Virus record (IMG/VR): IMGVR_UViG_3300025112_005635
Coordinates: 1-29,206 of that record
Length of the DNA: 29,206 bases
Direction: 5' to 3' (one strand)
DNA from: a virus
Below the pieces are notes generated by a model that did no database searches, had not been told where the DNA came from, and saw only the letters and a list, made by a program, of their open reading frames with translations. The position numbers were made by a program, and so were the translations under genes. Positions 3,489 through 28,086 of the stretch are shown one piece after another (position 1 is the stretch's first letter; every line of letters begins with the position of its first letter).

Positions 3489-4399
3489 AATTAAAAAAAA
3501 GATATGATCACGGTTATAGTTTTTATAATATAATTAAATATTATTGTCAAAATCCATATTCTAATTTCAATTATAATTTATATGTGAATAAATATTTAGT
3601 AAAGAATGCCGTAAAGGATATTATAAATGTTGCAGAACTTTATCATCATATAACTAATATTAAACAATTTGATGAGATCAATTTTGATATATTTCCAGAT
3701 AAATTTATAGTGAAGGGAACACACGGAAGTGGTGATCAACTTATAGTAGATAATAAAAATGAAATGGATAAATATGAAATTAGGAAATTTTGTGAATCTA
3801 CGTTGAATTATAATCATGGATATATAGGGCCTAATAAATGGGATTTACCTTATATATGGGAAAAACATTATAATTTTATAGAAAAGGGTATAATATTTGA
3901 GGAATATTTAGGTAATGTAGTAGATTATCAATTTCATGTAATACAAGGAAAACCAGAATCAATTTGGACTTGTCAGTATGATGATGTTTATATTCATAAT
4001 TCATATAATATGAATTGGAATTATATAAGCGACCATGTGTGGTTATGTGAATTAGATGATACTCAACGATGGAAAATACTTTTTAATCCTAACATTTATC
4101 CTAATTGTTATACAGATGTTAATCATAGTTCTGGAAAAAAACCAGAAAATTTTAAGGAAATGGTAGATACAGTTTATAAGCTAGTAGGACTTTTTGAAGA
4201 AGTTCCATATATACGAGTGGATTTGTACAATATAAATAATGTTCTTTATTTTGGAGAATTTACTCCTACAAGTCAAGCCGGAAATGTATTTAATGAAACG
4301 AGTGATTTTATACCAGAGTGGGATACGTATTTTGGTTCATTAATTAATTTCCAACCAGACATAGAGGCTTTAGAGAAAGTTAAAAGGCATTTTAATTGA
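3485..4399 (+). CDS. TupA-like ATP-grasp protein
   Basis: Member of the TupA-like ATP-grasp family (named after the enzyme of teichuronopeptide synthesis). Landmarks follow the family order: FDEINFD.FPDKFIVKGTHGSG (62-83) with the ATP-binding Lys and Gly loop, FEEYLGN..DYQFHV (139-152), GKKPENFKEM (218-226), and the closing IRVDLY (243-248) ... YFGEFT (255-260) with acidic metal ligands. The 304-residue length is normal. Family members ligate amino acids or peptides to cell-surface polymers or act in polysaccharide loci. It sits between another ATP-grasp gene and a GT8 gene, consistent with decorating a surface glycan. Start ATG 3485 overlaps the previous stop (ATGA). Confidence 0.82.
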   Translation: MKLKKRYDHGYSFYNIIKYYCQNPYSNFNYNLYVNKYLVKNAVKDIINVAELYHHITNIKQFDEINFDIFPDKFIVKGTHGSGDQLIVDNKNEMDKYEIRKFCESTLNYNHGYIGPNKWDLPYIWEKHYNFIEKGIIFEEYLGNVVDYQFHVIQGKPESIWTCQYDDVYIHNSYNMNWNYISDHVWLCELDDTQRWKILFNPNIYPNCYTDVNHSSGKKPENFKEMVDTVYKLVGLFEEVPYIRVDLYNINNVLYFGEFTPTSQAGNVFNETSDFIPEWDTYFGSLINFQPDIEALEKVKRHFN

Positions 4400-4400
4400 A

Positions 4401-5291
4401 ATGATTCAAGTTGCCATATGTGGAGATTTAAATGTTATAGAAGGTAGTTGTGCTTTAATAAATTCAATATTAGTAAATTCGAAGAGTGATATACGAATAA
4501 ATATAGTAACAGAATATGTGGATGAATATAGACAAGGTATTAATCAATGGTGTGATTCAACTGATGTAGTAAATATTATAAACCCCAATAGTATTGATTT
4601 AGAAGAATTATCAAATGATATACATTTTAGGGATGTGGAAGAATTTGGTGCATCAATGAAACCAAATAATATATATAATTTTATTCGATTTTATCTTCCT
4701 CAATTATTACCAGATGTAGATAGAATTATTTCTTTAGATAGTGATACAATTGTACAGAGTGATTTAAAAGATTTATATAATATTTTACCTTATAATTATA
4801 ATATTGGTGGCATTTTTTATGAAAGTTTAACATTTGAAGGTCAACAATTTAATGAAGATTTTTTAGATAAGAATAATATAAATAAAAATGATAAAATGTT
4901 TAATGGTGGAGTATATGTAACTAATTTACAATGGTGGAGAGATAATCAATATACAGAAAAGTGTATAAATCTTATGAAAGAACAAAAAAAATCTAAAAAT
5001 TTATATATGGGTGGACACCAATCAATAATGAATACTATATTTTATAATTTGATATATAATATTGACATACATTGGAATGTGGCGGGACTTGGTGAACCTA
5101 ATTGTGATGTAAATTCATTTCATCCTGGTATGGGTATGGGACCAGAACACCAATATAAATATCTTATTCCAAAGGCCAATATTTTACATTGGACAGGTAA
5201 CTTTAAACCTTGGACTATGAAACGGGGATCTGGAAGAAGGTATTGTGATGTTTGGTGGGATTATTTATATTATTATAAAGAGAGAAGATGA
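4401..5291 (+). CDS. GT8-family glycosyltransferase
   Basis: Retaining GT8-type (LgtC/glycogenin-like) glycosyltransferase. The first strand IQVAICGD binds the nucleotide, the RFYLPQLLPDVDRIISLDSDT segment carries the DXD at residues 113-115 (DSD), NGGVYVTNLQWWR (168-180) is the conserved NxGvxl region, and HWTGNFKPW (263-271) is the family's C-terminal H-x-x-G-x-x-KPW motif. Length 296 fits. Expected to transfer galactose, glucose or similar to a lipid- or protein-linked glycan. Stop overlaps the sulfotransferase start by 4 nt, so the two are probably co-translated. Confidence 0.9.
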   Translation: MIQVAICGDLNVIEGSCALINSILVNSKSDIRINIVTEYVDEYRQGINQWCDSTDVVNIINPNSIDLEELSNDIHFRDVEEFGASMKPNNIYNFIRFYLPQLLPDVDRIISLDSDTIVQSDLKDLYNILPYNYNIGGIFYESLTFEGQQFNEDFLDKNNINKNDKMFNGGVYVTNLQWWRDNQYTEKCINLMKEQKKSKNLYMGGHQSIMNTIFYNLIYNIDIHWNVAGLGEPNCDVNSFHPGMGMGPEHQYKYLIPKANILHWTGNFKPWTMKRGSGRRYCDVWWDYLYYYKERR

Positions 5292-5929
5292 AATTTATAT
5301 TATTAAGTTTCCAACGGACTGGAACTCATTTGTTTAGACGATATATTCGTTCACATAGTCAGTTAGATTGTCTTACTGAATGGTATTTTATAGAACCTGA
5401 ACCAGAATCATTAATGGAAGTAATTAATAATTTAAAAGATTACCAAGGTGTTACTGTTTTTGGAAAACAAGATGGTTACGATGATATGCCTATGGAATTA
5501 CCATTAGTTATTTTATTGAGAAAAAATAAATTTGAACAGGCATTATCACATTGTTTGATGAATTGGAGATGGGAGTTTGGAGATAATATTGAGGACCATT
5601 TTCTCGATTATAAAGAAGTTCAGTTTATGGATAAAGTTGAAATTGATTTGATTGATTTTAAAAAGACATATAAGTATTGTGTTAATAATACAGAAGAAAT
5701 ATTAAATAGAACTAAAAATTGTAGTAGAGAAATTTTTTGGTATGAAGATATAATTCCTAAAAATCAAGAAGGGTGGATAGCTAATATGCCAGAAGAAGAA
5801 AATAAAAGATTATGTAATTTTTTAGGTGTTGAATATGAACCCTTATCTGCAATATCGAAAAAGGTAGGTAGATATAATACGGTAATAAATTATAATGAGT
5901 TATATAATTGGTATAAGGAGATAATATGA
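5288..5929 (+). CDS. Sulfotransferase (PAPS-dependent, Stf0-like)
   Basis: P-loop-like sulfotransferase. The N-terminal LLSFQRTGTHLFRRYIRSH (residues 5-23) is the 5'-phosphosulfate-binding loop in the style of Stf0 and related bacterial carbohydrate sulfotransferases. A later strand, LVILLRKNKFEQALSH (73-88), matches the 3'-phosphate-binding region with Arg and a downstream Ser. Residues 140-150 (SREIFWYEDI) resemble the conserved YEDL block. It overlaps the GT8 gene upstream and speD downstream by 4 nt each. Likely sulfates a glycan made by neighbouring transferases. Family good; acceptor unknown. Confidence 0.75.
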   Translation: MKFILLSFQRTGTHLFRRYIRSHSQLDCLTEWYFIEPEPESLMEVINNLKDYQGVTVFGKQDGYDDMPMELPLVILLRKNKFEQALSHCLMNWRWEFGDNIEDHFLDYKEVQFMDKVEIDLIDFKKTYKYCVNNTEEILNRTKNCSREIFWYEDIIPKNQEGWIANMPEEENKRLCNFLGVEYEPLSAISKKVGRYNTVINYNELYNWYKEII

Positions 5930-6306
5930 TTCAAGAATATAGAGGAATAAATCATGATGGTGTGATTTATTATGGAAAACATTTGATATTAACTGCCAAT
6001 AAGTGTAATAAAAACATATTGAATAAAAAACAAGTTGCTAATTTTATGACAGAATTAGTTGATAGAATAGACATGGTGGCATTTGGTGATCCCATAGTTG
6101 AAAGGTTTGGTGAAGGTATTGAGATAGGATTATCGGCGGTACAACTTATAGAAACAAGTGCTATTGTTATTCATACTAATGACCAGGCAAGAGATATGTA
6201 TTTAGATGTATTTAGTTGTAAAACATTTTCTGAACATGATGTTATAAATTTTTTATTATCTGTATTTGAACCAGATAAAATTAATTCACAAGTTTTATTG
6301 AGGTAA
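5926..6306 (+). CDS. speD: S-adenosylmethionine decarboxylase (SpeD-like proenzyme)
   Basis: AdoMet decarboxylase of the small prokaryotic (class 1B) type. It self-cleaves to make a pyruvoyl cofactor, then decarboxylates SAM to give the aminopropyl donor for spermidine synthesis. Key residues are present with correct spacing: Ser78 (ETS, the pyruvoyl precursor), His83 (VIHT), and Cys98 (DVFSC), corresponding to Ser63/His68/Cys83 of the Thermotoga enzyme. The residue after the serine is Ala instead of the usual His. GKHLIL (17-22) is the typical start of the fold. Length 126 is normal. A spermidine synthase is not visible in the window, so the product may be used by the host enzyme or for another aminopropylation. 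A strong AAGGAG precedes the start. Confidence 0.82.
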   Translation: MIQEYRGINHDGVIYYGKHLILTANKCNKNILNKKQVANFMTELVDRIDMVAFGDPIVERFGEGIEIGLSAVQLIETSAIVIHTNDQARDMYLDVFSCKTFSEHDVINFLLSVFEPDKINSQVLLR

Positions 6307-6307
6307 A

Positions 6308-6940
6308 ATGAAATATTTATTTTGTATTTATACTGATTTAGAATACAAAGAACATTTGGACAATTTTAAAACACAAGAGTTTTATAGACAGATTTGTGAT
6401 GATCCCAACATTGAGGTTATAGAGTGGGGTACAGATTTCCACACGGATTATTGTGACTTACCTACAAAAACTCAAGAGATGATGAAATGGTGTAGTGAAA
6501 ATAAAGAGTATGATTATTTAATAAAATGTGATGATACTATTTTTAGTGATACTTGGAAATTTTATAGACCACGATTTACATATGAAAATATTTTTGTAAA
6601 AGGTAGAGATGGATTTTCTTATACTTGTGATAGGTGGGGAGATCAAAGTTGGTCGAAAGTTTGTGAAGATAATAATGATGATTATTGGGGAATAAATTAT
6701 ATAGGGCCACATTCAGATGAAGTATTGAAAATATATTTTGATGGCCATTATGGTAAAAATAAAATAGATTATAATTTAAATTTTATTAAAAATGATATTC
6801 AGTTTTATGAAGGAAAATTTTATATGGTATCACGAGATTTGAGTATATTTATAGGCAGACAGGAAGGTTTTGCAAAAAGAATGAGTGAAAATTTTCCTAT
6901 TGAAGATTTGATGGTAGGTTATTTAGCAGAGTCATTTTAA
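6308..6940 (+). CDS. GT31-like glycosyltransferase
   Basis: Probable GT-A glycosyltransferase resembling beta-1,3-galactosyltransferases (GT31). YDYLIKCDDTIF (68-79) has the family's DDD/DXD-like CDD motif after a hydrophobic strand. GKFYMVSRDLS (about 170-180) resembles the conserved G-x-x-Y-x-x-S block. FPIEDLMVGYLA (196-207) matches the E-D-V-x-x-G motif that carries the catalytic-region acid. At 210 residues it is a compact, phage-type version without membrane anchor. One base separates it from speD, and the next gene starts immediately after its stop. Confidence 0.6.
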   Translation: MKYLFCIYTDLEYKEHLDNFKTQEFYRQICDDPNIEVIEWGTDFHTDYCDLPTKTQEMMKWCSENKEYDYLIKCDDTIFSDTWKFYRPRFTYENIFVKGRDGFSYTCDRWGDQSWSKVCEDNNDDYWGINYIGPHSDEVLKIYFDGHYGKNKIDYNLNFIKNDIQFYEGKFYMVSRDLSIFIGRQEGFAKRMSENFPIEDLMVGYLAESF

Positions 6941-7753
6941 ATGAAAAAGGTTTTAGTTGCATATACCAATTATAATTATTTAAAATATGTTAAGAGTTGG
7001 GTACTTGGTGCAAGAGAAGTTGGTAAGTGGGGTGGTGATATTGTTATAATTGTACCATACGAGGATAAAGAAAAAATAAATGAAAATGAATTTTCAAACT
7101 TAAATATAAAATTCTTTTATCCTAAATCATTTGGTAGGGATTTTTATATTCATTACTATAAATTAATGATATTTGATAATTATTTTAAAAAGTGGGATTG
7201 GATATTTCATGTTGATTTGGATGTTATTTTTAATGAAAAGATAAACTTAAAATTATCAGAAAGGAATATTAATATTATTTATGCCAAAAATGATGGTTTA
7301 AGTTTATATCAACAATTTGATATGATAAATGATACAAGTGAACGTAATTTACCATCAGAATTTTCAAGAAAAGACTTTGAAAATAAAATTTCATTTCAAG
7401 GTTGTTTTTTATTATTTAATAAAAAAATAATAGAAGATGGTTATTTTGAAAAATTAAAAGAGTATTATTTTAAATATGCAGTATATTATGGTTGCTGTGA
7501 AACATTTAGAGATCAAACAATTTTAAACTTGGTTTTTGATGGTAAATGGGATGATTTGGGTGATAAGTATGTCAATAAGATTCCCATAATAGAAGAATTA
7601 AATTGGGATGTAAAAAAATTAGAAAGGGGTTATTATGATGATTATGATTATACTGGTAAATCAATAATTCATTTTTTAAGATATTTTGCACCCTGGGACG
7701 AGAATAATTTAAGATTTTATCCAATATGGAAGGAGTATAATGACAAATTTTAA
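6941..7753 (+). CDS. Putative GT-A glycosyltransferase (GT8/DXD-like)
   Basis: 270-residue protein beginning with a nucleotide-binding-like strand KKVLVAYTNYNYL. It contains WDWIFHVDLDVIF with DLD at 92-94, a good DXD motif. Further on is FQGCFLLFNKKI (about 151-162), which resembles the conserved mid-domain block where a glycosyltransferase recognises the acceptor. The C-terminus (IIHFLRYFAPW) resembles the H-x-x-G-x-x-KPW-type ending of GT8 enzymes, but weakly. Overlaps the MORN_2 gene by 14 nt. Fold assignment good, subfamily uncertain. Confidence 0.6.
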   Translation: MKKVLVAYTNYNYLKYVKSWVLGAREVGKWGGDIVIIVPYEDKEKINENEFSNLNIKFFYPKSFGRDFYIHYYKLMIFDNYFKKWDWIFHVDLDVIFNEKINLKLSERNINIIYAKNDGLSLYQQFDMINDTSERNLPSEFSRKDFENKISFQGCFLLFNKKIIEDGYFEKLKEYYFKYAVYYGCCETFRDQTILNLVFDGKWDDLGDKYVNKIPIIEELNWDVKKLERGYYDDYDYTGKSIIHFLRYFAPWDENNLRFYPIWKEYNDKF

Positions 7754-8930
7754 AGAAAAATATGGTGAGTATATACACTATGATGATGGAAAAATTACCA
7801 AAATAGAATGGTATACTCATGGAAATTGTGATTGTGAATTAGATGTTACTGATGGAGAACATTCTTATAATCATGGTGATGGACAACTTTGGCAAAAATA
7901 TACTTTGATAAATGGTAAACCAGATGGTGAATGGATTTTGTATCATTCTAATGGACAGATGAGTTTTTATAGGGAATATAAAAATGGTTTAAAAGAAGGA
8001 ATTTGGAAGTCTTGGCATGATGATGGTAGTCAATGGGACGAGCAAACATATTCGAAAGGTAAGAGAGATGGAATTAGTAAGAGATGGAGATATTCTGGAG
8101 TACCAGAATATAAAGGTTATTATGAAGATGGTAGAAAAGAAGGTGAATGGATTTATTATTATGATAATGGTAATAAAGAATATCAAGGTGTTTATGAAAA
8201 TGGTAAGAGAATAGGTAAGTGGATCCAACATGACGTAGATACTGGAAAAAAATTTGGTGAATTAAATTATGTAGATAATAAGTTAGATGGCGAATATTTT
8301 AAATTTAATGATGGCGGTTTAATAATTCTTAATGGTCAATATAAAAATGATAAAAAAGTAGGTAAGTGGATTTATACGAATGAAAATGGAAAAGTAGGAA
8401 AAGAGAAAAATTATAAAAATGGAAAATTAGATGGTATTTTTAAAAGATGGCATCCTAATAAAAAACTTTGGATGGATAGTAAATATATAGATGGAAAAAA
8501 ACAAGGGATCAGTAAAAGTTTTCATTTTAATGGTGTATGTTCATCAGAAGAAAATTGGAATAATGGTAAAAAAGATGGTAAATTTGATTATTACCATGAT
8601 AATGGAAATCAGAAAGTAAAGAGTATATATTTTTCTGATAAATTGGATGGTAAATATATAGAATGGTATAAGAATGGAAAGTTAAAAAAAAATATTGATT
8701 ATAATAAAGATATATTATCCGGAAATTATATAGAATATTATATTGAGGGTCAATATCGTGGAAAAGGAAAAATGAAAAATGATGAAATGCATGGAAAATG
8801 GACATTTTGGTATCACAATGGTCAAAAAGAGTGTGAGGTTACTTGTAAAAATGGAGAACTTATTGATGGTAAAGTGTGGGATGATGATGGTAATAAGAAA
8901 AAGAGTATAAGATTTAATTATCAGAGATGA
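7740..8930 (+). CDS. MORN_2/YwqK-type repeat protein (first of a tandem pair)
   Basis: A 396-residue protein made of about 14 copies of a ~23-residue MORN_2 repeat (pattern Y-x-N/D-G-K-x-x-G-x-W-x-x-Y/W-x-x-N-G), starting near residue 57. Clear units include DGEWILYHSNG, EGIWKSWHDDG and HGKWTFWYHNG. No signal peptide or membrane segment is visible. YwqK-family proteins of this type are annotated as antitoxins in bacteria, and MORN arrays form elongated beta-hairpin ribbons used for binding. The exact role is unknown; binding to a host surface or to protein partners is inferred. A good AAGGAG-like site (GGAAGGAG) precedes the start. Shares a 4-nt overlap with its paralogue. Confidence 0.8.
   Translation: MTNFKEKYGEYIHYDDGKITKIEWYTHGNCDCELDVTDGEHSYNHGDGQLWQKYTLINGKPDGEWILYHSNGQMSFYREYKNGLKEGIWKSWHDDGSQWDEQTYSKGKRDGISKRWRYSGVPEYKGYYEDGRKEGEWIYYYDNGNKEYQGVYENGKRIGKWIQHDVDTGKKFGELNYVDNKLDGEYFKFNDGGLIILNGQYKNDKKVGKWIYTNENGKVGKEKNYKNGKLDGIFKRWHPNKKLWMDSKYIDGKKQGISKSFHFNGVCSSEENWNNGKKDGKFDYYHDNGNQKVKSIYFSDKLDGKYIEWYKNGKLKKNIDYNKDILSGNYIEYYIEGQYRGKGKMKNDEMHGKWTFWYHNGQKECEVTCKNGELIDGKVWDDDGNKKKSIRFNYQR
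8799..8821 (+). repeat. 23-bp direct repeat, copy 1
   Basis: Identical to 10142-10164, lying in the last MORN_2 units of the two tandem paralogues (encoding WTFWYHNG). The flanking bases differ. It is a trace of common ancestry or gene conversion between the two genes. Confidence 0.8.
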
Positions 8931-10264
8931 AGTATAAAAAGGTTCAAAATAACGAAAATGTCATAGAGATTGATGGAAAGGTAGTGCTGTCATTTGATCC
9001 AAGGTATAAAGAATATCTGAAATGGAAAGATGAGAATCCTGATTTAGAACAACAGTTGTTGAGTGATTTAAAACAAGATATAAAGAATAAAAAATTATAT
9101 AATCGTGGTGAGCCACACAAAAAGGGCAATATTTGTAAATGGTATGATGAAGATGGTCATTTAATAATTAAATCAGAAATGAAAGATGATAAACCACATG
9201 GAATACAGTGGAATTATTATAAAAACGGAATTGTATCAGTACAAACTCAATATGAAAATGATAAAAAAACAGGCAAGTATTATCAATGGGACGAGGATGG
9301 AAAGAAAACAGTTGAAGGATTTTATTTGGACGGTATAGAAAATGGCGAAAAAATAACTTATTTTGATGGTAAGGTTCATTTTTCGGAGACTTTTGAAAAT
9401 GGAAAACTTAATGGACTGGCTAAATATAATACTCTTGATGGTAAGAGAGAAAGAGAAGGAATTTATAAAAATGGTAAGAGAGATGGGAAGTGGATTTTTT
9501 ACTATGAAAATGAAAATAAAAAATGGGAAGGCAATTATAAGGGTGATATTATAGAAGGAGAGTTGATTCAATATAGAGAAACTGGAATTATAAAATCAAA
9601 AGAGACATTTGTAAATGAAGAAATGAGGGGTCCATATGAATATTATCACTCGAATGGAAAATTAAGACAAAGTGGTTGGATACAAAATCATATGAAAAAC
9701 GGAGCAGTAAAATCATATTGGGAATCTGGAACTTTACAATCATTAGAAAATTTTAAGATGGGAATAAAACACGGAAAAATTGATAGATATGATATTAGTG
9801 GAGAATTACTTATGACGGGCCATTGTAAAAATAATTATCGTCATGGAAACTGGACATGGTATTATACGGGCGGTGATATGAAGATGAAATTAGAGGTATA
9901 TGAATTATCGGAGTTAAAAAAGGTTATTGATTGGGATCCTGATGGCCAACAAGTTAGTGAAGCAATTAAGATAGAAGATGTTATTGATAAGTGGAGAAAT
10001 ATTGGTTGGTATTCAAATGGAATTAAAAAACATGATATAAATTATGAAAATAAAAAACTACACGGTAATTGGACAGAATGGCATACTAATGGTCAAAGAA
10101 GGTCAAAGGGTAATATGTTATATGGTATGATGGATGGTAAGTGGACATTTTGGTATCACAATGGGAAAAGAGAATTAGAATTTAATTTAGACTTTGGAAA
10201 CCAAGTTGGTACTGCTAAAATATATCATGATAATGGTGTGTTAAAGGAAGTGGTAACTCTTTGA
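8927..10264 (+). CDS. MORN_2/YwqK-type repeat protein (second of a tandem pair)
   Basis: 445-residue paralogue of the gene just upstream. Residues 1-70 form a distinct N-terminal region that includes a polar helix (DLEQQLLSDLKQDIKNKK) and is not seen in the first protein. Then come about 13-14 MORN_2 units (for example DGKWIFYYENEN, HGNWTWYYTGG, HGNWTEWHTNG, DGKWTFWYHNG). A spacer around 340-360 interrupts the array (CDS about 9946-10008). No signal peptide. The tandem arrangement suggests duplication and divergence. The two probably act together, perhaps as extended binding scaffolds; no enzyme motif is visible. Confidence 0.8.
   Translation: MKYKKVQNNENVIEIDGKVVLSFDPRYKEYLKWKDENPDLEQQLLSDLKQDIKNKKLYNRGEPHKKGNICKWYDEDGHLIIKSEMKDDKPHGIQWNYYKNGIVSVQTQYENDKKTGKYYQWDEDGKKTVEGFYLDGIENGEKITYFDGKVHFSETFENGKLNGLAKYNTLDGKREREGIYKNGKRDGKWIFYYENENKKWEGNYKGDIIEGELIQYRETGIIKSKETFVNEEMRGPYEYYHSNGKLRQSGWIQNHMKNGAVKSYWESGTLQSLENFKMGIKHGKIDRYDISGELLMTGHCKNNYRHGNWTWYYTGGDMKMKLEVYELSELKKVIDWDPDGQQVSEAIKIEDVIDKWRNIGWYSNGIKKHDINYENKKLHGNWTEWHTNGQRRSKGNMLYGMMDGKWTFWYHNGKRELEFNLDFGNQVGTAKIYHDNGVLKEVVTL
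10142..10164 (+). repeat. 23-bp direct repeat, copy 2
   Basis: Second copy of the 8799-8821 repeat, 1343 bp downstream, in the equivalent repeat unit of the second MORN_2 gene. Confidence 0.8.
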
Positions 10265-11001
10265 AGGGGGTGGACTTAAAATTAGCAATATGTGGAGATA
10301 GTTTTTGTGCTGATTATGGTAAAAATCCATATCCATCTTTTATATATTTATTACAAACAGAATTAAAGGCTGATATTCTGTGTACTGGTAGAATGGGCAT
10401 TTCTCTTTATCATGCATATGAAGATTTAATTACACATTATAAAAATAGTGATATAATTATTTTATGTGTTACTGAGCCATCAAGGGTGTCTAATAGATAT
10501 AGAGTGGGTATTGGTAGAGGTTGGAATGATGATGAACAAGATGATATTATTGAGTGGTTACAGACAAAAGGTTCAATTCACACTAAGGATGGTAAAAGAA
10601 GGAGAATAGATAATAAGTCAGGAAAACCAATTATAAATCCACTTAATGAATATGAAGCAAAAGGATTTGTAGATGCAATAACATATTATAATAAATTTAT
10701 TCGTAATGATGATTTTCATGATGTTGTTCAGAGAGGAATATTACGAGATATAGAATTTTTGTTGAAGGAAGAAAACAAAAAGGTTATATATTTTAGATGT
10801 TTTAACAATAGTTTTTGTGGGTTTGAGCCATCACATGGTGTTTGGGGAGATACAAAATTATTAAATTATACTCCTACAGGCCGTAAGGAATATTTGAATC
10901 ATATGAGTGAAGAAAACAATATGAGAATGTTTCAATTTATCAAAAGAATAATTGAAGAAGATGATTTTTCATGTCGCGAGATAAAGATGTGGAGTTTATG
11001 A
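10261..11001 (+). CDS. SGNH/GDSL-type hydrolase-like protein
   Basis: Likely SGNH-fold esterase or O-acetyltransferase-type hydrolase. GDSF at 12-15 is block I with the nucleophile Ser14. GRMGIS (about 44-49) fits the block II glycine. The C-terminal HMSEENN (about 218-224) resembles the block V histidine region, though the usual Asp-x-x-His is not exact. The start is a TTG (10261) overlapping the preceding stop as TTGA, with AAGGAAG 10 nt upstream. A GTG at 10270 is an alternative. In a glycan cluster such enzymes often add or remove acetyl groups; that role is inferred. Confidence 0.6.
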   Translation: MKGVDLKLAICGDSFCADYGKNPYPSFIYLLQTELKADILCTGRMGISLYHAYEDLITHYKNSDIIILCVTEPSRVSNRYRVGIGRGWNDDEQDDIIEWLQTKGSIHTKDGKRRRIDNKSGKPIINPLNEYEAKGFVDAITYYNKFIRNDDFHDVVQRGILRDIEFLLKEENKKVIYFRCFNNSFCGFEPSHGVWGDTKLLNYTPTGRKEYLNHMSEENNMRMFQFIKRIIEEDDFSCREIKMWSL

Positions 11002-11576
11002 TAAATTATAATAAAAAATATATTTTTGTTAGGATACCCAAAACAGCCTCTACTTCTATTGGGAAGATTTTATCAACGAAGTGGATGACACATACAAAAC
11101 TAAGTGAATTAAAAAAGATGAGAGACCACCATCAATATTTTATTTTTTGTTTTGTTCGTAATCCTTGGGATCGTATATATTCTGCATTTGAATATTTGAA
11201 ACAAGGTGGTAATAGTAAATCTCCTTGGGATATACAGGCAAAACTAAAAATGATTGATGTTGTAGATGGTAACTTCGAGGAGTTTATTTATAAATTTGTT
11301 AATAAGGAAAATAGTGATTTCTGTAATCATGTACATTTTAAATTACAGTTAGATTGGATTGGTAATTCGGATTACATTGATTATATAGGAAAATATGAAA
11401 ATTTGAATGAAGATTGGAAAAAAATCTCGACTATTATAGGGGAAACTAAAATTTTACCCAAAGAAAACATTTCAAAAAATAGGAAACCTTATAGAAATGT
11501 TTACAATGATAAAATGGTAGAACTTGTTTATGATTTTTATAAAAAAGATATTTTAGAGTTTAATTATGAATTCTGA
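10998..11576 (+). CDS. Sulfotransferase (Sulfotransfer_2 type)
   Basis: PAPS-dependent carbohydrate sulfotransferase. From ATG 10998, FVRIPKTASTSI (10-21) is the 5'-phosphosulfate-binding loop, and FVRNPWDRIYSAF (52-64) is the 3'-phosphate-binding block with Arg and Ser; both are classic. NHVHFKLQLDWI (about 108-119) and the ending KMVELVYDFYKKDILEFNYEF-like tail are also typical of the family. ATG 10998 gives an ATGA overlap with the SGNH gene and a natural N-terminus; an in-frame ATG at 10971 exists and would extend it by nine residues. A second sulfotransferase of a different subfamily from the one at 5288. Confidence 0.85.
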   Translation: MINYNKKYIFVRIPKTASTSIGKILSTKWMTHTKLSELKKMRDHHQYFIFCFVRNPWDRIYSAFEYLKQGGNSKSPWDIQAKLKMIDVVDGNFEEFIYKFVNKENSDFCNHVHFKLQLDWIGNSDYIDYIGKYENLNEDWKKISTIIGETKILPKENISKNRKPYRNVYNDKMVELVYDFYKKDILEFNYEF

Positions 11577-12285: not shown

Positions 12286-13028
12286 GACTCGGTCCCAAAA
12301 CTTATCAAAAAACATTTCAACAATTCTATTCTGCAGATTATTACGCTAAAAGATTGATTGGATTCACTTCCATAATGACAAATGAAAACGAGGTGATAAG
12401 TGTCTTAGAACCAACGGCGGGCCCAGGCAATTTGATAAAATATTTATATAACAATTATCCAAATAAAGGTAATTTATCTATATTTGCTTGTGATATTTGT
12501 CCTACAAATAGGAAACTTCTCAAATCACTTTTGGAAACTAATAATGATGTTTTATATAATGAACCTGATTTTTTAAAGTTAGAGAATGAAATTACTTCAA
12601 GGGGTGATAAATTCGATTATATTATAATGAATCCACCTTTCCATTTGAGGATAGAAGAATTTTCGGAATGTTTTACGATTAACGGTGGTGATTGGCCCTT
12701 TGATGTTTATGATATAGATTTTATATTACAGGCTAGAAAGTATTTGAAACCAAATGGAGAATTAGTATCAGGTTTATATACGTGTCATTTGAATAGAGAT
12801 TTAATAAAACTCAATGGCTGGAAATGTTTTCTTCCCGAAGAATCATCTCTTGATTGGGACTATATGCAGGATGTTCATGACCATTGGAAAAGTGCATTTT
12901 TAGATTCTAATTACGAAATAGAATTGGTTGATATGGATGAGGAAGTACAATATAAAGACAATTCTTATCAAGGTATAAATTACAAACGAACTGTTCCATG
13001 TACTATAATGAAAATAAAAAGATTATAA
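12282..13028 (+). CDS. N6-adenine-type methyltransferase-like protein
   Basis: SAM-dependent methyltransferase with VLEPTAGPGN (41-50) as motif I and IIMNPPFHL (115-122) as the catalytic NPPF motif, as in adenine-N6 DNA methyltransferases or TaqI-like folds. FACDI (68-72) is the acidic post-I strand. No target-recognition domain is visible, so the 248-residue protein may act on another substrate such as RNA or protein. It sits inside the glycan island between two sugar-modifying genes, so a glycan or DNA role is open. Overlaps both neighbours. Confidence 0.68.
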   Translation: MRLGPKTYQKTFQQFYSADYYAKRLIGFTSIMTNENEVISVLEPTAGPGNLIKYLYNNYPNKGNLSIFACDICPTNRKLLKSLLETNNDVLYNEPDFLKLENEITSRGDKFDYIIMNPPFHLRIEEFSECFTINGGDWPFDVYDIDFILQARKYLKPNGELVSGLYTCHLNRDLIKLNGWKCFLPEESSLDWDYMQDVHDHWKSAFLDSNYEIELVDMDEEVQYKDNSYQGINYKRTVPCTIMKIKRL

Positions 13029-15097
13029 TGAGAATACAGAAACATGCAATCATAACTCCTGGTCGAACAGGCAGTAATCTATTATGTGCTGTTTTGAATA
13101 TGCATCCAGAATGTATAAATAGAGGAGAAATTTTTGGAGATATCAGAAATATAGTTTTAAATGAATATTCCTGGCAAAGACCCGATTTAATGGTAGATAA
13201 TTTTTGGTTTAAAGATTATTCAAAAATGGATTCGGTAGGATTTAAATGTTTATATTTTCACGATACAAAGAGAGATTGTAAGGTAAGTGATTTTCTAATT
13301 AAACACGATTATAAAGTAATACACTTAAAGAGAAGAAATAAATTAAAACAATATATTTCATGGAAAAAAGTTTTACAAGGTGATAAATGGGGGGATGATT
13401 TTTTATTCAAAAAGGATACAAATCCATGGCTCAATGGTAAAGTTGAAGTAGATATACCAGATTTAATTGAACGATTTGAGGTTCAAAAGAATCAAGAGAA
13501 GGTGTATACTGATAAATTTCCTAATGCTTTAGAGGTTTATTATGAAGATATAGTTTCTGATTTTGATTTAAATTTTACGAAAGATAATAATAAGACAATA
13601 CAAGATATTTTTAATTATCTTGGTTTAGATTATCAAAGAATAATTGATGATAAGAAAGATGTGAATTCTTTTCTGAAGGAAACCGATTTATTTTCTTTAG
13701 AAGAATTTGATATTACTAATCATACTTCTACGATAAGAAAAAAATGGTTAGATATAGTTGATGGTATTGAAAGTCATGACTTCTTTTTGCAGAAGTCGAG
13801 AATTTTACCATTGAATGAGTGTATATTAAATTATGACGAAGTTAGAGAAAAATTAGTTGGAACGGCGTATGAGATTTATTTAGATGAGAAATATAGCCTT
13901 AATGATTATAAACATAGATTATTAAAAATAATAGAATCCAATGGTATTGATATAGAAATTTTAAAAGAAAATGAAGTGTATCTTCTGGGAGGATCAATTT
14001 TAAGATTATTTATGGATTTACCATTAGATACAGATTTAGATTTATACTTTCTTGATTTCGAAAGGTTTACAAATGTAAATGATTATTTCAATGAAAATTT
14101 TTCTTTGGTTTATGATAGCCCACTATTCGTAAATTATCAGGGTAAAAATTTGATTATATCACTTATATATAATGAGAGATTATTGGGAGATTATGAATAT
14201 GTAACTAAAACTCATTATGATTTTTCTATATCAGCCGGGTGTTTTGATTTTAAAACTGAAACATTTAATTTTGGAGATAATTATTTTAACGATTTAAAAA
14301 ATAGAAAACTTGTTCCGTATGGTGATCGTGGACTGTGGAGACAAAATTCACCATCAGTATTAAAAAGAGTAGATAAATTTAAAAAACTTGGATTTACTAT
14401 TGATGAAGATGTTGAGAATATATTAAAAGAAAATTCACGAGGTTTAAAAAGGTCAGACCTTGATGAATATTATCAAAGATTTGGTAAAAAAAGTTGGTTA
14501 AGAGACGAGGATGTTTATCCAGTAGTTCCTAATATTGATATATTTGTTAATTGGTTGATGGATATAAAAGAACATGAATATTTTGATAAGTTTAATTATT
14601 ATATATTTGGTGGTTTTATATCTTGGCCAGAAAAAACTAAGGATATAGATTTATTAATAACAAAACGAGATGGTCAACATGCTACCTTAAAAGAACTTGA
14701 AAAATTAATGGTAGATATGTTTGATTCTGCATATGATACTCATGGATTTTTTCTTGATACTTGTTATATGAGAATACCACAATGGATAGCAGATTATCCA
14801 AGAGATGAGGAAAGATTAAGGTCGGTTGAAAAAACAGGATTATGGATTACTATAACAAAAAATAAACCAGAATATCCTATTAAATTTAGAAGATATGGAA
14901 AATTAAATTGTTGTTATAGACCAAGTTTTACTAATTGGTATGATAACGATTCAGATATGATAAATAGGTGGGTAAATTTAGATGCAAATTATGCAAGAAT
15001 GGTAGATTTACGAAGAATTATAAAATATTATGAAAATAATAAAGAAAGAAATATGGAAGATTTTAAAGAAAAGTTTCAAGAATATTCAGGATATTAG
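13028..15097 (+). CDS. Sulfotransferase fused to two nucleotidyltransferase-like domains
   Basis: 689-residue fusion from ATG 13028, which overlaps the previous stop as TAATG. Domain 1 (about 1-250): Stf0-like sulfotransferase, with the PAPS loop IITPGRTGSNLL (about 8-19), HPE..NRGEIFGD (26-38) and the 3'-PB region LKRRNKLKQYISW (about 100-112). Domain 2 (about 310-470): pol-beta/PcnB-like nucleotidyltransferase head, with LLGGS (319-323) and DTDLD (334-338), then an R-x-x-RVDKF-like segment near 445-455. Domain 3 (about 520-650): a second such domain, with FGGF (527-530) and KDIDLL (538-543). Both NTase domains have the GG[SF]...DxD core. I know no close multidomain relative. The substrate could be a sulfated, nucleotidyl-activated sugar; this is inference. 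Confidence 0.62.
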   Translation: MRIQKHAIITPGRTGSNLLCAVLNMHPECINRGEIFGDIRNIVLNEYSWQRPDLMVDNFWFKDYSKMDSVGFKCLYFHDTKRDCKVSDFLIKHDYKVIHLKRRNKLKQYISWKKVLQGDKWGDDFLFKKDTNPWLNGKVEVDIPDLIERFEVQKNQEKVYTDKFPNALEVYYEDIVSDFDLNFTKDNNKTIQDIFNYLGLDYQRIIDDKKDVNSFLKETDLFSLEEFDITNHTSTIRKKWLDIVDGIESHDFFLQKSRILPLNECILNYDEVREKLVGTAYEIYLDEKYSLNDYKHRLLKIIESNGIDIEILKENEVYLLGGSILRLFMDLPLDTDLDLYFLDFERFTNVNDYFNENFSLVYDSPLFVNYQGKNLIISLIYNERLLGDYEYVTKTHYDFSISAGCFDFKTETFNFGDNYFNDLKNRKLVPYGDRGLWRQNSPSVLKRVDKFKKLGFTIDEDVENILKENSRGLKRSDLDEYYQRFGKKSWLRDEDVYPVVPNIDIFVNWLMDIKEHEYFDKFNYYIFGGFISWPEKTKDIDLLITKRDGQHATLKELEKLMVDMFDSAYDTHGFFLDTCYMRIPQWIADYPRDEERLRSVEKTGLWITITKNKPEYPIKFRRYGKLNCCYRPSFTNWYDNDSDMINRWVNLDANYARMVDLRRIIKYYENNKERNMEDFKEKFQEYSGY

Positions 15098-15106
15098 GAG
15101 AAAAAA

Positions 15107-16024
15107 ATGATTAGTTTTATTATACCCTTTTCTACAATAGAAAAAGATAAGTTTTTAAACTTAAACGAAAAAGAAGATTTGTGGGAAGAAAATGATTCTG
15201 CAAATATAGTATATTCTACTATTAAAACAATTAAAAATATAAATTCACTTAAATGTGAAAAAGAAATTTTATTAGTAGATAACAGTCATACTTGGCTCGA
15301 AGTAGATTTACCGAATGTTAGAGTAATCAAAGGATGGCAAGCATTACCAGTAGAGGAACTTGAAAAGATTCCTGAATATATGAATCATAGAGATATACAG
15401 GCAAGTTTAGATAATCTTGGTTGTTTAACTATGTGGGTATCTATGGCATTCCATTTGGGAACACAAGAGGCAAAAGGTGATTACATTGTATTACAACACA
15501 ATGATACCTTTTATCATCAAGATTGTATTGATGAAATGATTAAACAACTGGAAGAAGAAGAACTTGAATATATTTCAGTTGATAATAAGAAGATATGGAT
15601 TTCAACTTATTTATTGAATAAAGATTTTTTAGATAAATATATTAAAGAATATACTGCACAGCCAGTATCAATAAAACCAGAAAATGGTGGATATGTAAAA
15701 ACCAAAAAGATTGGATTCGCAGATGCGTATTTTTTCTTGTGTAAGAGAAAGTTCTTTGATAATTATAATATAGACTGGTACTACGGTGATACCAATCATG
15801 GTGCAACTATTTGGTGTCTTTACAATAATTTGAAATATCTTCATTTGGGACCTTATTATGACAATCCTAATTGGGAAACGGAAGATACGTTACATACATA
15901 TTACTATAAGGATGAGCCATTTTTAACTCATCTAAAAGGGGGTTTTTCAGAAAATAAAATGTCAGCAAAAGATTTCGAAGAAGAATTTAATGCGTACTTA
16001 AAGGAATTAACAAATGCAAAATGA
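15107..16024 (+). CDS. GT2-like glycosyltransferase
   Basis: Probable inverting GT-A glycosyltransferase. The N-terminal MISFIIPFS is a typical GT2 start, EILLVDNSHTW (about 53-63) is the first acidic strand, and DYIVLQHNDTFYHQD (about 125-139) carries a DXD-like HND motif. KIGFADAYFFLCKR (about 201-214) resembles the catalytic-base region. An AGGAG sits 6 nt before ATG 15107. Ends by overlapping the clamp-loader gene by 11 nt. The fold is fairly clear, the donor unknown. It closes the glycan island. Confidence 0.65.
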   Translation: MISFIIPFSTIEKDKFLNLNEKEDLWEENDSANIVYSTIKTIKNINSLKCEKEILLVDNSHTWLEVDLPNVRVIKGWQALPVEELEKIPEYMNHRDIQASLDNLGCLTMWVSMAFHLGTQEAKGDYIVLQHNDTFYHQDCIDEMIKQLEEEELEYISVDNKKIWISTYLLNKDFLDKYIKEYTAQPVSIKPENGGYVKTKKIGFADAYFFLCKRKFFDNYNIDWYYGDTNHGATIWCLYNNLKYLHLGPYYDNPNWETEDTLHTYYYKDEPFLTHLKGGFSENKMSAKDFEEEFNAYLKELTNAK

Positions 16025-16934
16025 ACATACCCTGTGGGTAGAAAAATATAGGCCTAATAATCTTGACACTTATATTGGTAATGACCAGTTAAAAAGTAAA
16101 GTTAAGGTTTATTTGGAAAGTGGAGACTTACCACATCTATTGTTGTTTGGTAAGGCTGGTACAGGTAAGACCACTCTCGCAAAACTACTCGTTAATAATA
16201 TAGAATGTGATTATCTTTATATTAACGCGTCAGACGAGAACAATGTAGATACCGTGAGAACAAAGGTTAAGAGTTTTGCATCTACGATGGGTTTCAAGGA
16301 TTACAAGGTTATAATCTTGGACGAGTGTGATTACATTACACCCAATGCCCAGGCCGCACTAAGAAACTTGATGGAAACATTCAGTAAACATTGTAGGTTT
16401 ATTTTGACTTGTAATTTCGTAGAGAGAATAATTGACCCGATACAATCTCGGTGTCAAACATTTCAAGTTATTCCACCAGATAGAAAACAAGTTGCAATTC
16501 ACATTAGTAATATATTGACAAGTGAGAATGTAGAAAGTGAAGTTAGTGATATTGCACTTTTAGTGAATAGTGGATATCCCGATATAAGACGAGTTATCAA
16601 TTCTGCACAACGACAATCTATTGATGGTAAATTGACAATAGATAAACAGAGTATAGTAGAGAATGATTATAAATTAAAGTTATTAGAGATATTAAAGAAA
16701 CAAGATAAAGCAAGTGCATTTAAAAATATTCGTCAGTTAATGGCAGATAGTCAAGTTAAGGATTATGCAGACTTATTTAGACTACTATATGATGAAGTAG
16801 ATAGTTATGGTAAGGGACATATTGCCGAATGTATCTTGGTTATAGCAAAGTATGAATTAAGTGATAGTCAGGTAGTTGATAAGGAAATCAATGCTATGGC
16901 TATGATAATAGAATTATTAGGAGTCATAAAATAA
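16014..16934 (+). CDS. 44: Sliding-clamp loader large subunit (gp44-like, RFC-type AAA+ ATPase)
   Basis: Clamp-loader ATPase like T4 gp44, which with gp62 opens the sliding clamp and loads it at primer-template junctions. LWVEKYRPNNLDTYIG (7-22) is the RFC box, GKAGTGKTT (46-54) is Walker A, VIILDECD (99-106) is Walker B with the DEC variant of DExx, and ILTCN (130-134) with SRC (145-147) are sensor 1 and the arginine-finger motif. Length 306 matches gp44. DNA here is clearly less AT-rich (24 G+C in 60 at 16141-16200) than in the glycan island. It overlaps the ClpP-like gene by one base. This is the anchor for assigning the window to a T4-like phage. Confidence 0.92.
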   Translation: MQNEHTLWVEKYRPNNLDTYIGNDQLKSKVKVYLESGDLPHLLLFGKAGTGKTTLAKLLVNNIECDYLYINASDENNVDTVRTKVKSFASTMGFKDYKVIILDECDYITPNAQAALRNLMETFSKHCRFILTCNFVERIIDPIQSRCQTFQVIPPDRKQVAIHISNILTSENVESEVSDIALLVNSGYPDIRRVINSAQRQSIDGKLTIDKQSIVENDYKLKLLEILKKQDKASAFKNIRQLMADSQVKDYADLFRLLYDEVDSYGKGHIAECILVIAKYELSDSQVVDKEINAMAMIIELLGVIK

Positions 16935-19670: not shown

Positions 19671-20242
19671 TGCTAGAAGAAATATCATTAGAGATATCAA
19701 ATTATTGGACATCAAATGATTTTTTAACAGAGAGTAATAAAAATTGTGGAACTCTTGTTGCATTTGATTGGAGAGAAGATTGTTTAAGTGAAATAAATAC
19801 TAATATTGATTTAAGTTATTTAGAAGTTGAAAATTTTGGATTTGATATTTTCGTAGATTTTTTAAAGAAGAATAATTTTACTTTTGTATTGGGATTGAGA
19901 AATATTGTGTTTAAAGATAATCCATCTCTAGAATGGACAGATAAATTTAAAGAAATATTAAAATCTAATGAGATAGACTATGATGAATATATGATAGGTA
20001 GATATCCAGCGCCAATTCCAGAATTTGATGTACCAGATAACATTTTTATTTTAAGATATTCATTTGATCCGTATAATAAAATTGATGGATTTGCATCCAA
20101 TAAATTTTTATTTGAAGAATTTATAAAAAAAAGTGATTGGGAAGAATATTATAAAGGTGTATATTCTGAAGTAAAAACAAGAGTTATAGTTTTTTGTAGT
20201 GAGTTAGAAAATTTAATATTACATGAGAGTTTTGATAAATGA
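19670..20242 (+). CDS. Unknown protein paralogous to the N-terminal domain of the 26674-28086 Hint protein
   Basis: 190 residues with no known name. Residues 27-140 align with residues 42-180 of the large Hint-bearing protein at 26674. Shared blocks are G-x-LVAFD/LVSFD (27-33), E-x-NTNI (41-46), and the very close PAPIPEFDVPDNIFILRY (113-130) versus GQAIPDFDLPDTTFILRY. The following KTRVIVFCSELENLIL also resembles the segment MEVRGIVMMTPTKNIM there. It lacks the Hint part and the Ser-rich linker. Probably a structural or accessory domain that can occur alone. Overlaps the next gene by 4 nt. Confidence 0.6.
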   Translation: MLEEISLEISNYWTSNDFLTESNKNCGTLVAFDWREDCLSEINTNIDLSYLEVENFGFDIFVDFLKKNNFTFVLGLRNIVFKDNPSLEWTDKFKEILKSNEIDYDEYMIGRYPAPIPEFDVPDNIFILRYSFDPYNKIDGFASNKFLFEEFIKKSDWEEYYKGVYSEVKTRVIVFCSELENLILHESFDK

Positions 20243-21426
20243 TTAAAAAACCTTTATCGTGCAAGTTAAGACCATCTGATATTAATACGGATTTAGAATG
20301 TTTATTGTTAAGTGAAGTTGGTAGTTATGAAAAGATTATTAAAGAATTACTTTATGATATACACGAAGAATTTTCTGGGGGAGACGATCCTTGGAATGAT
20401 ATATGGTCATTTGATGATGTAATTGAGAGATTTGATAAGGGTGAAATTTTATGGTTAGTTTTGAAGGATGAGAACCCAATAAGTTGTAGTTGGATATCAG
20501 TTAAATCTAATGAGAATTTATTTATTTATAATACTTGGTTAAAACCAAAATTACGAGGAACAGATTTATTTAGAAAAATATCATTAGTAAGGAATGATAG
20601 GTTGCATACTTTAGGTTATGAAAAACTTCTATGTGTTACTGATAATATTCGTGCAGAAAAAGGATTAAAAAAGATTGGATATAAAGAAGATAATTGGATG
20701 GATATTCAATATATATTTTGGACAGGTGGTTATGATTCTACTTTTTTAGTTTGCAAATTTTTATTGGAAAATAGATTAGTTCAACCTATTTATATAGATG
20801 ACAGAATAAATCATGGCGGTTATCATTCAAATCCACTTGTAAAACAAAGAGGTGGTGATACTTATCCAAGAAAATCTACGGAAATAGAATTGGAAAGAAT
20901 GGATTGGTTAAGGCAAAGAATTTATGAAAAAATTGAAAAGTCTAAATATTTATTGTTGGAAACAATGGTTATTGATAAACCGATAGAAGAAGATGAAGAA
21001 ATAAGTAAGGTTGTAGAAAAATACAATGAATGGATTCCAAATACTATATCAGAAAAAGGTTGGCTGCCAGTCTATACAGATTTAGTATCGAGATTTCAAA
21101 AACAATTTGGTTTAGAAATATTTTGGGCAAATGACCATATTGAAGGTGAGTTTTATGAAGTATTTGATGATTCAATAGAAGATGGTAGAATGAAAGTAGA
21201 TAAATTACCATCTAAGTATAAAGATTTAAAAATATTTAGTGGATTAGTTCAACCACTAAGACATACCAATAAGAAAGAGATGTTGGAAGTTGCAAAACAA
21301 AAAGGATTTGATGACTTGTTATATTATACTTGGACTTGTTGGTATCCAAATGACAGAGAACCCTGTGGTGAATGTCATGTGTGTAATGAAAGAATAATAG
21401 AATGTAAGGAGATTACAAATGAATAA
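20239..21426 (+). CDS. GNAT acetyltransferase-like domain fused to a QueC-like PP-loop domain
   Basis: 395 residues. The N-terminal ~150 residues resemble a GNAT acyltransferase: a strand LWLVLKDENPISCSW, then LRGTDLFRKIS (105-115) in the position of the acetyl-CoA pyrophosphate loop. The C-terminal part is a PP-loop ATPase of the QueC/ExsB type: FWTGGYDSTFL (160-170) is the ATP pyrophosphatase loop, and Cys367, Cys376, Cys379 and Cys382 are spaced 9-3-3 like the QueC zinc site (EPCGECHVCNER near the end). QueC makes 7-cyano-7-deazaguanine; no QueD, QueE or FolE is seen here, so a different amide/nitrile-forming or ligase role is also possible. The fusion itself is unusual. Confidence 0.7.
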   Translation: MIKKPLSCKLRPSDINTDLECLLLSEVGSYEKIIKELLYDIHEEFSGGDDPWNDIWSFDDVIERFDKGEILWLVLKDENPISCSWISVKSNENLFIYNTWLKPKLRGTDLFRKISLVRNDRLHTLGYEKLLCVTDNIRAEKGLKKIGYKEDNWMDIQYIFWTGGYDSTFLVCKFLLENRLVQPIYIDDRINHGGYHSNPLVKQRGGDTYPRKSTEIELERMDWLRQRIYEKIEKSKYLLLETMVIDKPIEEDEEISKVVEKYNEWIPNTISEKGWLPVYTDLVSRFQKQFGLEIFWANDHIEGEFYEVFDDSIEDGRMKVDKLPSKYKDLKIFSGLVQPLRHTNKKEMLEVAKQKGFDDLLYYTWTCWYPNDREPCGECHVCNERIIECKEITNE

Positions 21427-26673: not shown

Positions 26674-28086
26674 ATGTCTGTATTATATAGACAAAGTATA
26701 TATGAAGATAAAATAGTATCTCAATCATTAAACTTAGCTAATATGTTTTTGACGGGCAGTAATGCTAAATATTGGGCCGGTAAAGATAATCATCATGGAG
26801 TTTTAGTGTCATTTGATTATATGCCAAGTTCTGGGTCTTTAAAATTACTTGAGGCAAATACAAATATTGCAATAGAATCTCAACATGCAAATAATAATTG
26901 GAATGCTAATTTTTCACAATCAATAGGTTTAAGTCCAACATCTAAAAAGTTTGATATGGACGCTATGGCAACATATATTAGTGAAAGTGGTCATACTTCA
27001 ATAGTTCATATAACAAGAAATGCAACTGATTGGCAACAACAACCACATCCAAATGTCTTGACCAAATTTAATACAATTTTGAATAGTTATGGGATAACAT
27101 CTTCTTCTAAATATGAGGTGGCGTATGGTCAAGCTATTCCCGATTTTGATCTTCCCGACACAACATTTATTCTTAGATATGCATATGAAATTGATAATGA
27201 AATAGATGTACTTGTTAATTATAGAAACGATTTTAATGAACTTGTTCGGTCAAGCGGATACTCAAGTTATATACCACAACTTTCAGGTTCCTGGACTACC
27301 GATTTTGTTGGAAACTCAAATGGTATTCCAGATATTATAACAAAAATTGATGATTCTAAAGGACTTGAAGGAGTTAGGTTGTTTGATGTTACCACCTCAA
27401 CTTCTGCATCTTTATCATCATCATATAGTTATGTAGAAAGGTATAATAAACCTGATGTCAATCATTTAGGTGCTACAATGGAAGTTCGTGGTATAGTTAT
27501 GATGACACCAACCAAAAATATTATGGTTAGTCAAGTTCCAGAATATACTGGAGGTGACCAATGGTTAAATCATCAATATTTAGTATCATCATCAAATGAT
27601 AATGAAAGGATAGAATATTCGTATGGTAACAGAAAAATGTTTCAAAATAAATTTGCTACTCTTGTAGGACAAAAAATATTATCTTCAAGTAATGAATGGA
27701 TAGATGTCGAAGATTTAACTATTGGGGATGTATTGGTAAGTTATAATACTGGTAGTTCAGAAAAAGGAACTACAACAATAAAAGACATAGAAGCTATACA
27801 ATGGGGTGGTGATTATTTAATAAACAACACCTATAAATTTATGTCTGGCTCTCGTGTATATAATAGTCCAAATGAATCTTCTGGTTGGTCGTTTACTCAA
27901 ATTCAAGATGTAAATACTGGTACTTATATACTGAGTTCTTCATTGGATGCCATAGAAGTAAGTTCATCTGTGGCAAGAACTGAAGATACTGCGAATTATT
28001 GGGGTGATAGAATTGGATGGGTAATTGATGTTGAACCAAGTGATCATTATTTTGTTGGGAAAGTATTAGTGCACGATAATATTTAA
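26674..28086 (+). CDS. Large Ser-rich protein with C-terminal degenerate Hint domain (putative virion protein)
   Basis: 470 residues. N-terminal domain (about 42-180) is paralogous to the 19670 protein (IPDFDLPDTTFILRYAYE). The middle (about 180-325) holds Ser-rich stretches (TSTSASLSSSYSY). The C-terminus (about 328-470) is a Hint-like fold: FATLVGQKILSSSNEWIDVEDL and TIGDVLVSYN (349-358) give the first block, and the ending HYFVGKVLVHDN matches the last intein block. The nucleophilic residue at the start of the Hint (C/S) is replaced (TLVG) and the block-B His is not visible, so protein splicing is improbable. Such degenerate Hint ends occur in virion proteins. Function unknown; structural role inferred. 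Confidence 0.6.
   Translation: MSVLYRQSIYEDKIVSQSLNLANMFLTGSNAKYWAGKDNHHGVLVSFDYMPSSGSLKLLEANTNIAIESQHANNNWNANFSQSIGLSPTSKKFDMDAMATYISESGHTSIVHITRNATDWQQQPHPNVLTKFNTILNSYGITSSSKYEVAYGQAIPDFDLPDTTFILRYAYEIDNEIDVLVNYRNDFNELVRSSGYSSYIPQLSGSWTTDFVGNSNGIPDIITKIDDSKGLEGVRLFDVTTSTSASLSSSYSYVERYNKPDVNHLGATMEVRGIVMMTPTKNIMVSQVPEYTGGDQWLNHQYLVSSSNDNERIEYSYGNRKMFQNKFATLVGQKILSSSNEWIDVEDLTIGDVLVSYNTGSSEKGTTTIKDIEAIQWGGDYLINNTYKFMSGSRVYNSPNESSGWSFTQIQDVNTGTYILSSSLDAIEVSSSVARTEDTANYWGDRIGWVIDVEPSDHYFVGKVLVHDNI

Follow-up and report, generated by a model that had tools for sequence, protein, structure and literature searches.

Domain swapping in phages is best known from tail fibres and lysins. Domain mosaicism of phage proteins in general is a known process, in which a homologous fragment is found in otherwise unrelated proteins and recent swaps can be seen in DNA (Smug et al. 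2023, PMC10684548). In T4-like cyanophages, remodelling of the host surface against superinfection has been proposed for polymorphic clusters of glycosyltransferase genes (PMC7824862). The gene considered here lies in IMG/VR virus record IMGVR_UViG_3300025112_005635, a stretch of 29,206 bases referred to as the window, and encodes a Stf0-like sulfotransferase fused to two nucleotidyltransferase (NT)-type domains, together called the NT-NT module. Within a variable locus of this T4-like marine phage, it is probably a mosaic cargo gene whose front enzyme is exchangeable on the NT-NT module. No report of this three-part architecture was found in the open-licence literature, and although the process resembles that described by Smug et al., the main text of that study does not mention sulfotransferase, nucleotidyltransferase or glycosyltransferase. 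The features of the gene are listed below; related contigs carry numbers with the prefix L.

13028..15097, + strand: whole fused gene, sulfotransferase plus CCA-adding enzyme/poly(A) polymerase (CCA/PAP)-head-like domain plus second nucleotidyltransferase-like domain (689 amino acids and stop; same architecture in L001)
13028..13897, + strand: Stf0-like 3'-phosphoadenosine 5'-phosphosulfate (PAPS) sulfotransferase domain, residues 1-290 (motifs, structural comparison, separate homologues L007:5622-6614 and L009:5625-6617)
13055..13084, + strand: PAPS 5'-phosphosulfate loop TPGRTGSNLL, residues 10-19 (sequence; conserved in homologues)
13322..13360, + strand: 3'-phosphate-binding motif HLKRRNKLKQYIS, residues 99-111 (R102 and S111 invariant in four homologues)
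13901..14467, + strand: CCA-adding/poly(A) polymerase head-like nucleotidyltransferase domain, residues 292-480 (AlphaFold2 (AF2) model, structural match, phrog_4400)
13988..14041, + strand: active-site signature GGS...DTDLD, residues 321-338 (D336 and D338 invariant)
14486..15094, + strand: second nucleotidyltransferase-like domain, residues 487-689 (conserved in nine contigs)
14609..14650, + strand: signature GGF...KDID, residues 528-541 (conserved in relatives)
14756..14758, + strand: candidate third catalytic acid D577 (invariant)

The frame is open over all 689 codons with no interruption, and its start overlaps the stop of the preceding gene (TAATG); a second possible in-frame ATG is found at 12998. 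The only in-frame start codons near the border between sulfotransferase and NT-NT module, GTG at residue 317 and ATG at residue 329, both lie within the middle domain, and no ribosome-site-like sequence precedes either. Thus, the fused gene reads as one polypeptide. A preliminary description of this DNA had reported the continuous frame correctly, placed the motifs where they are found (TPGRTGSNLL at residues 10-19, GGS...DTDLD at 321-338, FGGF...KDIDLL at 527-543), and guessed domain limits near those obtained here (about 1-290, 292-480 and 487-689). The three signatures are conserved in relatives and are therefore not chance motifs, with D336/D338, G528/G529, D539/D541 and D577 invariant across every aligned copy. 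The same domain order, which that description suggested seeking in other viral contigs, is present in a second IMG/VR contig, L001, in a protein 64% identical overall. As L001 carries the same fusion, an assembly artefact is ruled out as its origin.

A search with the C-terminal domain added further relatives; the related contigs number nine, some of them fragmentary (L003 is truncated on the left, and L005 contains the last 82 codons only). Four N-terminal states occur on one C-terminal module: a sulfotransferase (window and L001), a glycosyltransferase-like domain (L007, 701 amino acids; L010, 685 amino acids), a deaminase with its best score to the tRNA adenosine deaminase TadA (L004, 546 amino acids; 4e-22), and none, with NT-NT as a stand-alone gene of about 400 codons (L008, L009 and the 131,840-base contig L011). 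The label glycosyltransferase-like is a reading of the sequence of that front domain, which belongs to the same family as window gene 6941-7753 (34% identity); the family has no Pfam match. In L007 and L009 a separate sulfotransferase gene lies downstream of the NT gene. Its product of 330 amino acids is 38% identical to the N-terminal part of the window protein, and it ends in residues that align to 258-290 of the window protein, immediately ahead of the NT-NT module. The start codon of the stand-alone NT-NT genes is TTG or GTG and overlaps the stop of the preceding gene (TTGAG, GTGAG). A tblastn search of 50,697 annotated phages with the whole query protein (P0001) gave no match, and a search of genome contigs gave no relative of the NT-NT module.

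DNA identity, profiled in windows of 50 codons, is uneven along the gene, and thus the gene parts have different histories. Between the window and L001, DNA identity is 69% for the sulfotransferase, 60% for the middle domain and 93% for the third domain. L001 and L007, with different front domains, share 91% across the middle domain, L007 and L010 share 96% in the glycosyltransferase part and 62% in the middle domain, and L003 and L004 are identical over the middle domain and then diverge. The best breakpoints, in residues of the window protein, are at 485-488, 505-515, 510-514, 526-542 and 567-568 (Fisher p 1.7e-17 to 3e-52, from a simple count of informative sites with no phylogenetic model). 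L001 switches at 505-515 from L007-like (208/224 sites) to window-like (73/84; p 1.6e-42), and L003 switches at 526-542 (p 3e-52). The initial quarter of the third domain contains most of these breakpoints; the other exchange point lies where the front domain meets the NT module. The ratio of nonsynonymous to synonymous substitution rates (dN/dS) between the window and L001 is 0.25 for the sulfotransferase, 0.44 for the middle domain and 0.29 for the third, and all three parts of the fused gene are thus under purifying selection.

As a mosaic cargo gene, the fusion would have arisen when a Stf0-like sulfotransferase gene was joined in frame ahead of a constant two-domain NT-NT gene. Because the stand-alone starts overlap upstream stops, stop loss or a small in-frame deletion could make such a fusion. 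Recombination among related phages would exchange the front enzyme (sulfotransferase, glycosyltransferase-like, deaminase, or none) and, separately, the middle-domain alleles, at or near domain borders. The last domain, like the genes downstream, would remain nearly constant. The domains would act largely independently, as beads on a string: the sulfotransferase would sulfate a glycan made by the neighbouring glycosyltransferases, and the NT part would transfer a nucleoside monophosphate to some acceptor by two-metal DxD catalysis.

The front domain is similar to Stf0/lipopolysaccharide (LPS) sulfotransferases (NodH-type; PF09037/PF13469) in its PAPS 5' loop, the invariant Arg...Ser of its 3'-phosphate motif and, in a model of low confidence, its predicted fold. 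It differs from them in that the window copy remains under the Pfam cut-off (17.2 bits vs 27) and its C-terminus is fused to two NT-type domains; the separate phage homologues, ~40% identical, barely reach the cut-off with Sulfotransfer_3 (6e-6, 27 vs 27 bits) and score 20.5 vs 22 bits with Stf0 (4e-4). R13, G15, S16, L18 and L19 of the loop are invariant in four homologues, as are R102 and S111, which form the Arg...Ser of the pattern HLKRxN...S. A further segment, LKRRNKLKQYISW, resembles the Stf0/NodH pattern. In structural comparison of a predicted model of low confidence (predicted local distance difference test (pLDDT) 49), sulfotransferases occupy all of the first 15 VIA rows, the best being 6xkg (Z 9.4, root-mean-square deviation (rmsd) 4.2, 178 residues), and the best Foldseek E is 0.4. 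Against the PDB, sequence profiles gave a weak NodH-type match (E 0.19), and genome contigs yielded one distant match (28% identity). Since both PAPS-binding motifs are invariant in four homologues and the separate copies have Pfam support, the assignment of residues 1-290 as a Stf0-like PAPS sulfotransferase is sound, and the preliminary description was right on this point.

The NT-NT module was folded with AF2 from nine sequences (mean pLDDT 71, predicted template modelling score (pTM) 0.46), with local pLDDT mostly 80-95 in the middle domain. This domain (model residues 1-189) matches the CCA-adding enzyme 3h3a (VIA Z 15.9, rmsd 3.0, 182 residues; Foldseek E 4e-7), followed by FAM46/TENT5 (Z about 10-11) and by aminoglycoside nucleotidyltransferases and DNA polymerase beta (pol beta; Z 6-7). 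In sequence libraries the window copy gives weak matches to pcnB (0.002) and phrog_4400 (5e-4), the latter being matched in 9/9 members of the NT-NT set (best 5e-17). D336 and D338 are kept in all relatives and in proteins of three other phages; hypothetical proteins with the same DxD and FDFTI motifs are found in Aeromonas, Klebsiella and Psychrobacillus phages. The phrog_4400-type proteins (Aeromonas phage 2L372X_045, Klebsiella phage KP13-16 EPNKCIFM_00164) have the same head-like domain, with DxD, FDFTI and GY/GF segments, but they lack a sulfotransferase part, and at the C-terminus they do not resemble the third domain of the window protein. Class II CCA-adding enzymes and bacterial poly(A) polymerases share with the middle domain the fold of the head, the GG signature, the DxD pair, the DFT of motif B and an RxxKFxxLGF segment. 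However, ahead of the retained DF(T/S)I of motif B (RRDxT) no arginine is conserved, and the neck, body and tail RNA-binding domains are missing, with another domain starting directly after, about 30 residues past the LGF segment. Thus, the middle domain resembles a CCA head yet, judging from its sequence, is not a CCA-adding enzyme.

The third domain is 70-90% identical to that of the window in all other copies, and G528 and G529, D539 and D541, and D577 are invariant in 9/9. Its predicted order, modelled within the NT-NT module, is helix-strand(GG)-helix-strand(DID)-helix-strand(LD), and from these motifs and this strand order it is plausibly nucleotidyltransferase-like. Of the two pol beta-type cores named in the preliminary description, the middle one is thus borne out by its fold and the third is plausible. 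The two differ in sequence, as had been noted: hhalign aligned 28 columns, exactly the GG..DxD motifs, with a probability of 1.5%. Used by itself in tblastn against the 50,697 phages, the third domain gave no match even at E 10, a scan of viral contigs for its motif pattern gave nothing beyond the same 8 contigs, and PDB profile searches by sequence gave nothing usable for either NT domain. BFVD alignments across both NT domains were considered as other tandem NT proteins and dropped, as the homologous phage proteins examined have no second NT domain.

The locus just upstream of the clamp-loader gene (gp44) is variable, with NT-NT as its constant gene, and the order of its right flank is the same in related contigs:

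15107..16934, + strand: constant right flank, family-2 glycosyltransferase gene and gp44-type clamp loader

The window genes are all on one strand. Upstream are glycosyltransferases (GT8, Gly_transf_sug, Caps_synth), a TupA-like ATP-grasp, two more sulfotransferase genes, two MORN-repeat genes and methyltransferases; downstream, the family-2 glycosyltransferase and the clamp loader (phrog_168, 5e-86) are accompanied by a ClpP-like protease and a PfkB kinase. The record has no match to AbiEii (PF08843). The nearest clamp loaders (40-48% identity) come from a Microcystis phage, Synechococcus phages and an uncultured phage that is unannotated. The virus is a T4-like phage; the term marine rests on a remark in the preliminary description and on these clamp-loader relatives. 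The locus resembles the cyanophage clusters (PMC7824862) in belonging to a T4-like phage, in its several glycosyltransferases and PfkB kinase, and in being polymorphic among relatives, but differs in its sulfotransferases, MORN-repeat proteins and domain-swapped fusions. The NT domains of the window are of the pol beta type and not of the HIGH type described there. From this analysis, the setting of the gene is likely to be the remodelling of host surface glycans against rival phages.

Several other features of the locus were observed. The two further sulfotransferase-type genes, 5288-5929 and 10971-11576 (Sulfotransfer_3 5e-5; Sulfotransfer_2 2e-15), bring the phage to at least three. In L023 (11192-11617) and L003 (1185-1610), NT-NT is directly followed by a stand-alone gene for a dCMP-type deaminase, of a different subgroup from the fused deaminase of L004 (no blastp match between them). 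Adjacent MORN-repeat genes (window 7740-8930 and 8927-10264; also in L001, L004, L007, L009, L021 and L023) vary in repeat number and have nearly constant C-terminal ends, and across them (window 8001-10000) GC skew reaches 0.48-0.62 and AT skew about 0.2. A GNAT-QueC-like fusion is found in the window (20239-21426) and L023 (16676-17848), with GNAT alone at L024:7798-8226 and QueC-like alone at L009:8443-9285, and is a second fused/unfused case in the same locus. Window gene 26674-28086 encodes a protein of 470 amino acids with a C-terminal end that by eye appears to be of the Hint autoprocessing type (ending VLVHDNI), with no Pfam match; L021:14774-16399 encodes a similar protein. In L024 a split intein breaks the gp44 gene (4073-6357; Intein_splicing 4.5e-6 in the N-half and 8.9e-6 in the C-half, with a free-standing open reading frame of 297 amino acids between them), an arrangement that resembles the fractured genes of other phages.

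The preliminary description had hinted at a dedicated bifunctional enzyme, in which sulfotransferase and NT domains would act in sequence on one acceptor (a sugar, lipid, RNA end or protein). This agrees with the order kept in the window and L001, with all parts under purifying selection, and with a sulfotransferase gene that adjoins NT-NT even where unfused (L007, L009). However, NT-NT stands alone in three contigs and has other front enzymes, glycosyltransferase-like or a TadA-type deaminase, in three more, the sulfotransferase is separate in two, and the front partners share no chemistry. The L001 middle domain is of an allele common to the glycosyltransferase-fused L007 and is thus not specialised to the sulfotransferase. 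Given these alternative partners, separate genes and recombination near domain borders, a dedicated enzyme is not supported and appears quite unlikely. The preliminary description had set against its own reading, among other outcomes, separate genes for the domains in relatives together with an assembly artefact; separate genes are seen, and the artefact is contradicted by L001. Very improbable too is that NT-NT serves as a platform adding a nucleotide to a product made or bound by the exchangeable front enzyme; were it so, related phages would obtain different decorated molecules by a one-domain swap, by a logic like that of polymorphic toxins or tail fibres.

Repair or tailing of tRNA or other RNA ends by NT-NT, with the front domains as passengers, is compatible with a mosaic gene and somewhat doubtful. 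It would fit the CCA/PAP-head-like fold of the middle domain, the weak pcnB match, the TadA-type domain of L004 and the CCA-adding enzymes reported in jumbo phages for tRNA repair (PMC7824862), but the motif-B arginines and tRNA-binding domains of CCA enzymes are absent, there is no tRNA gene in the window, and the neighbours are of glycan type. The fusion could also be accidental and nearly neutral, a stop loss in a packed locus with no function beyond that of each part. This milder form of the mosaic-gene reading is possible, if short of probable: stand-alone starts overlap upstream stops and the locus holds the GNAT and QueC-like pair, but the frame is kept in two copies whose sulfotransferase parts have diverged to 69% DNA identity, and the glycosyltransferase fusion persists through exchange of the middle domain. 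Against a mosaic cargo gene itself, it must be counted that the same order in two fusions under purifying selection also fits functional coupling, that the breakpoint test is a simple one, that the sulfotransferase model is of low confidence, and that neither the libraries nor the PDB gave a match for the third domain, which, folded only within the NT-NT module, was barely covered by the fold search.

If the gene is, as seems probable, a mosaic cargo gene, the process behind it is known, and the novelty lies in which front domains are involved and in the enzyme module that receives them. Enzymatic front ends would here be swapped on one constant module, with DNA-level traces of how. The middle domain belongs to a head-only CCA-like family that is widespread in phages and uncharacterised. 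More generally, a domain fusion in a phage need not imply a shared pathway.
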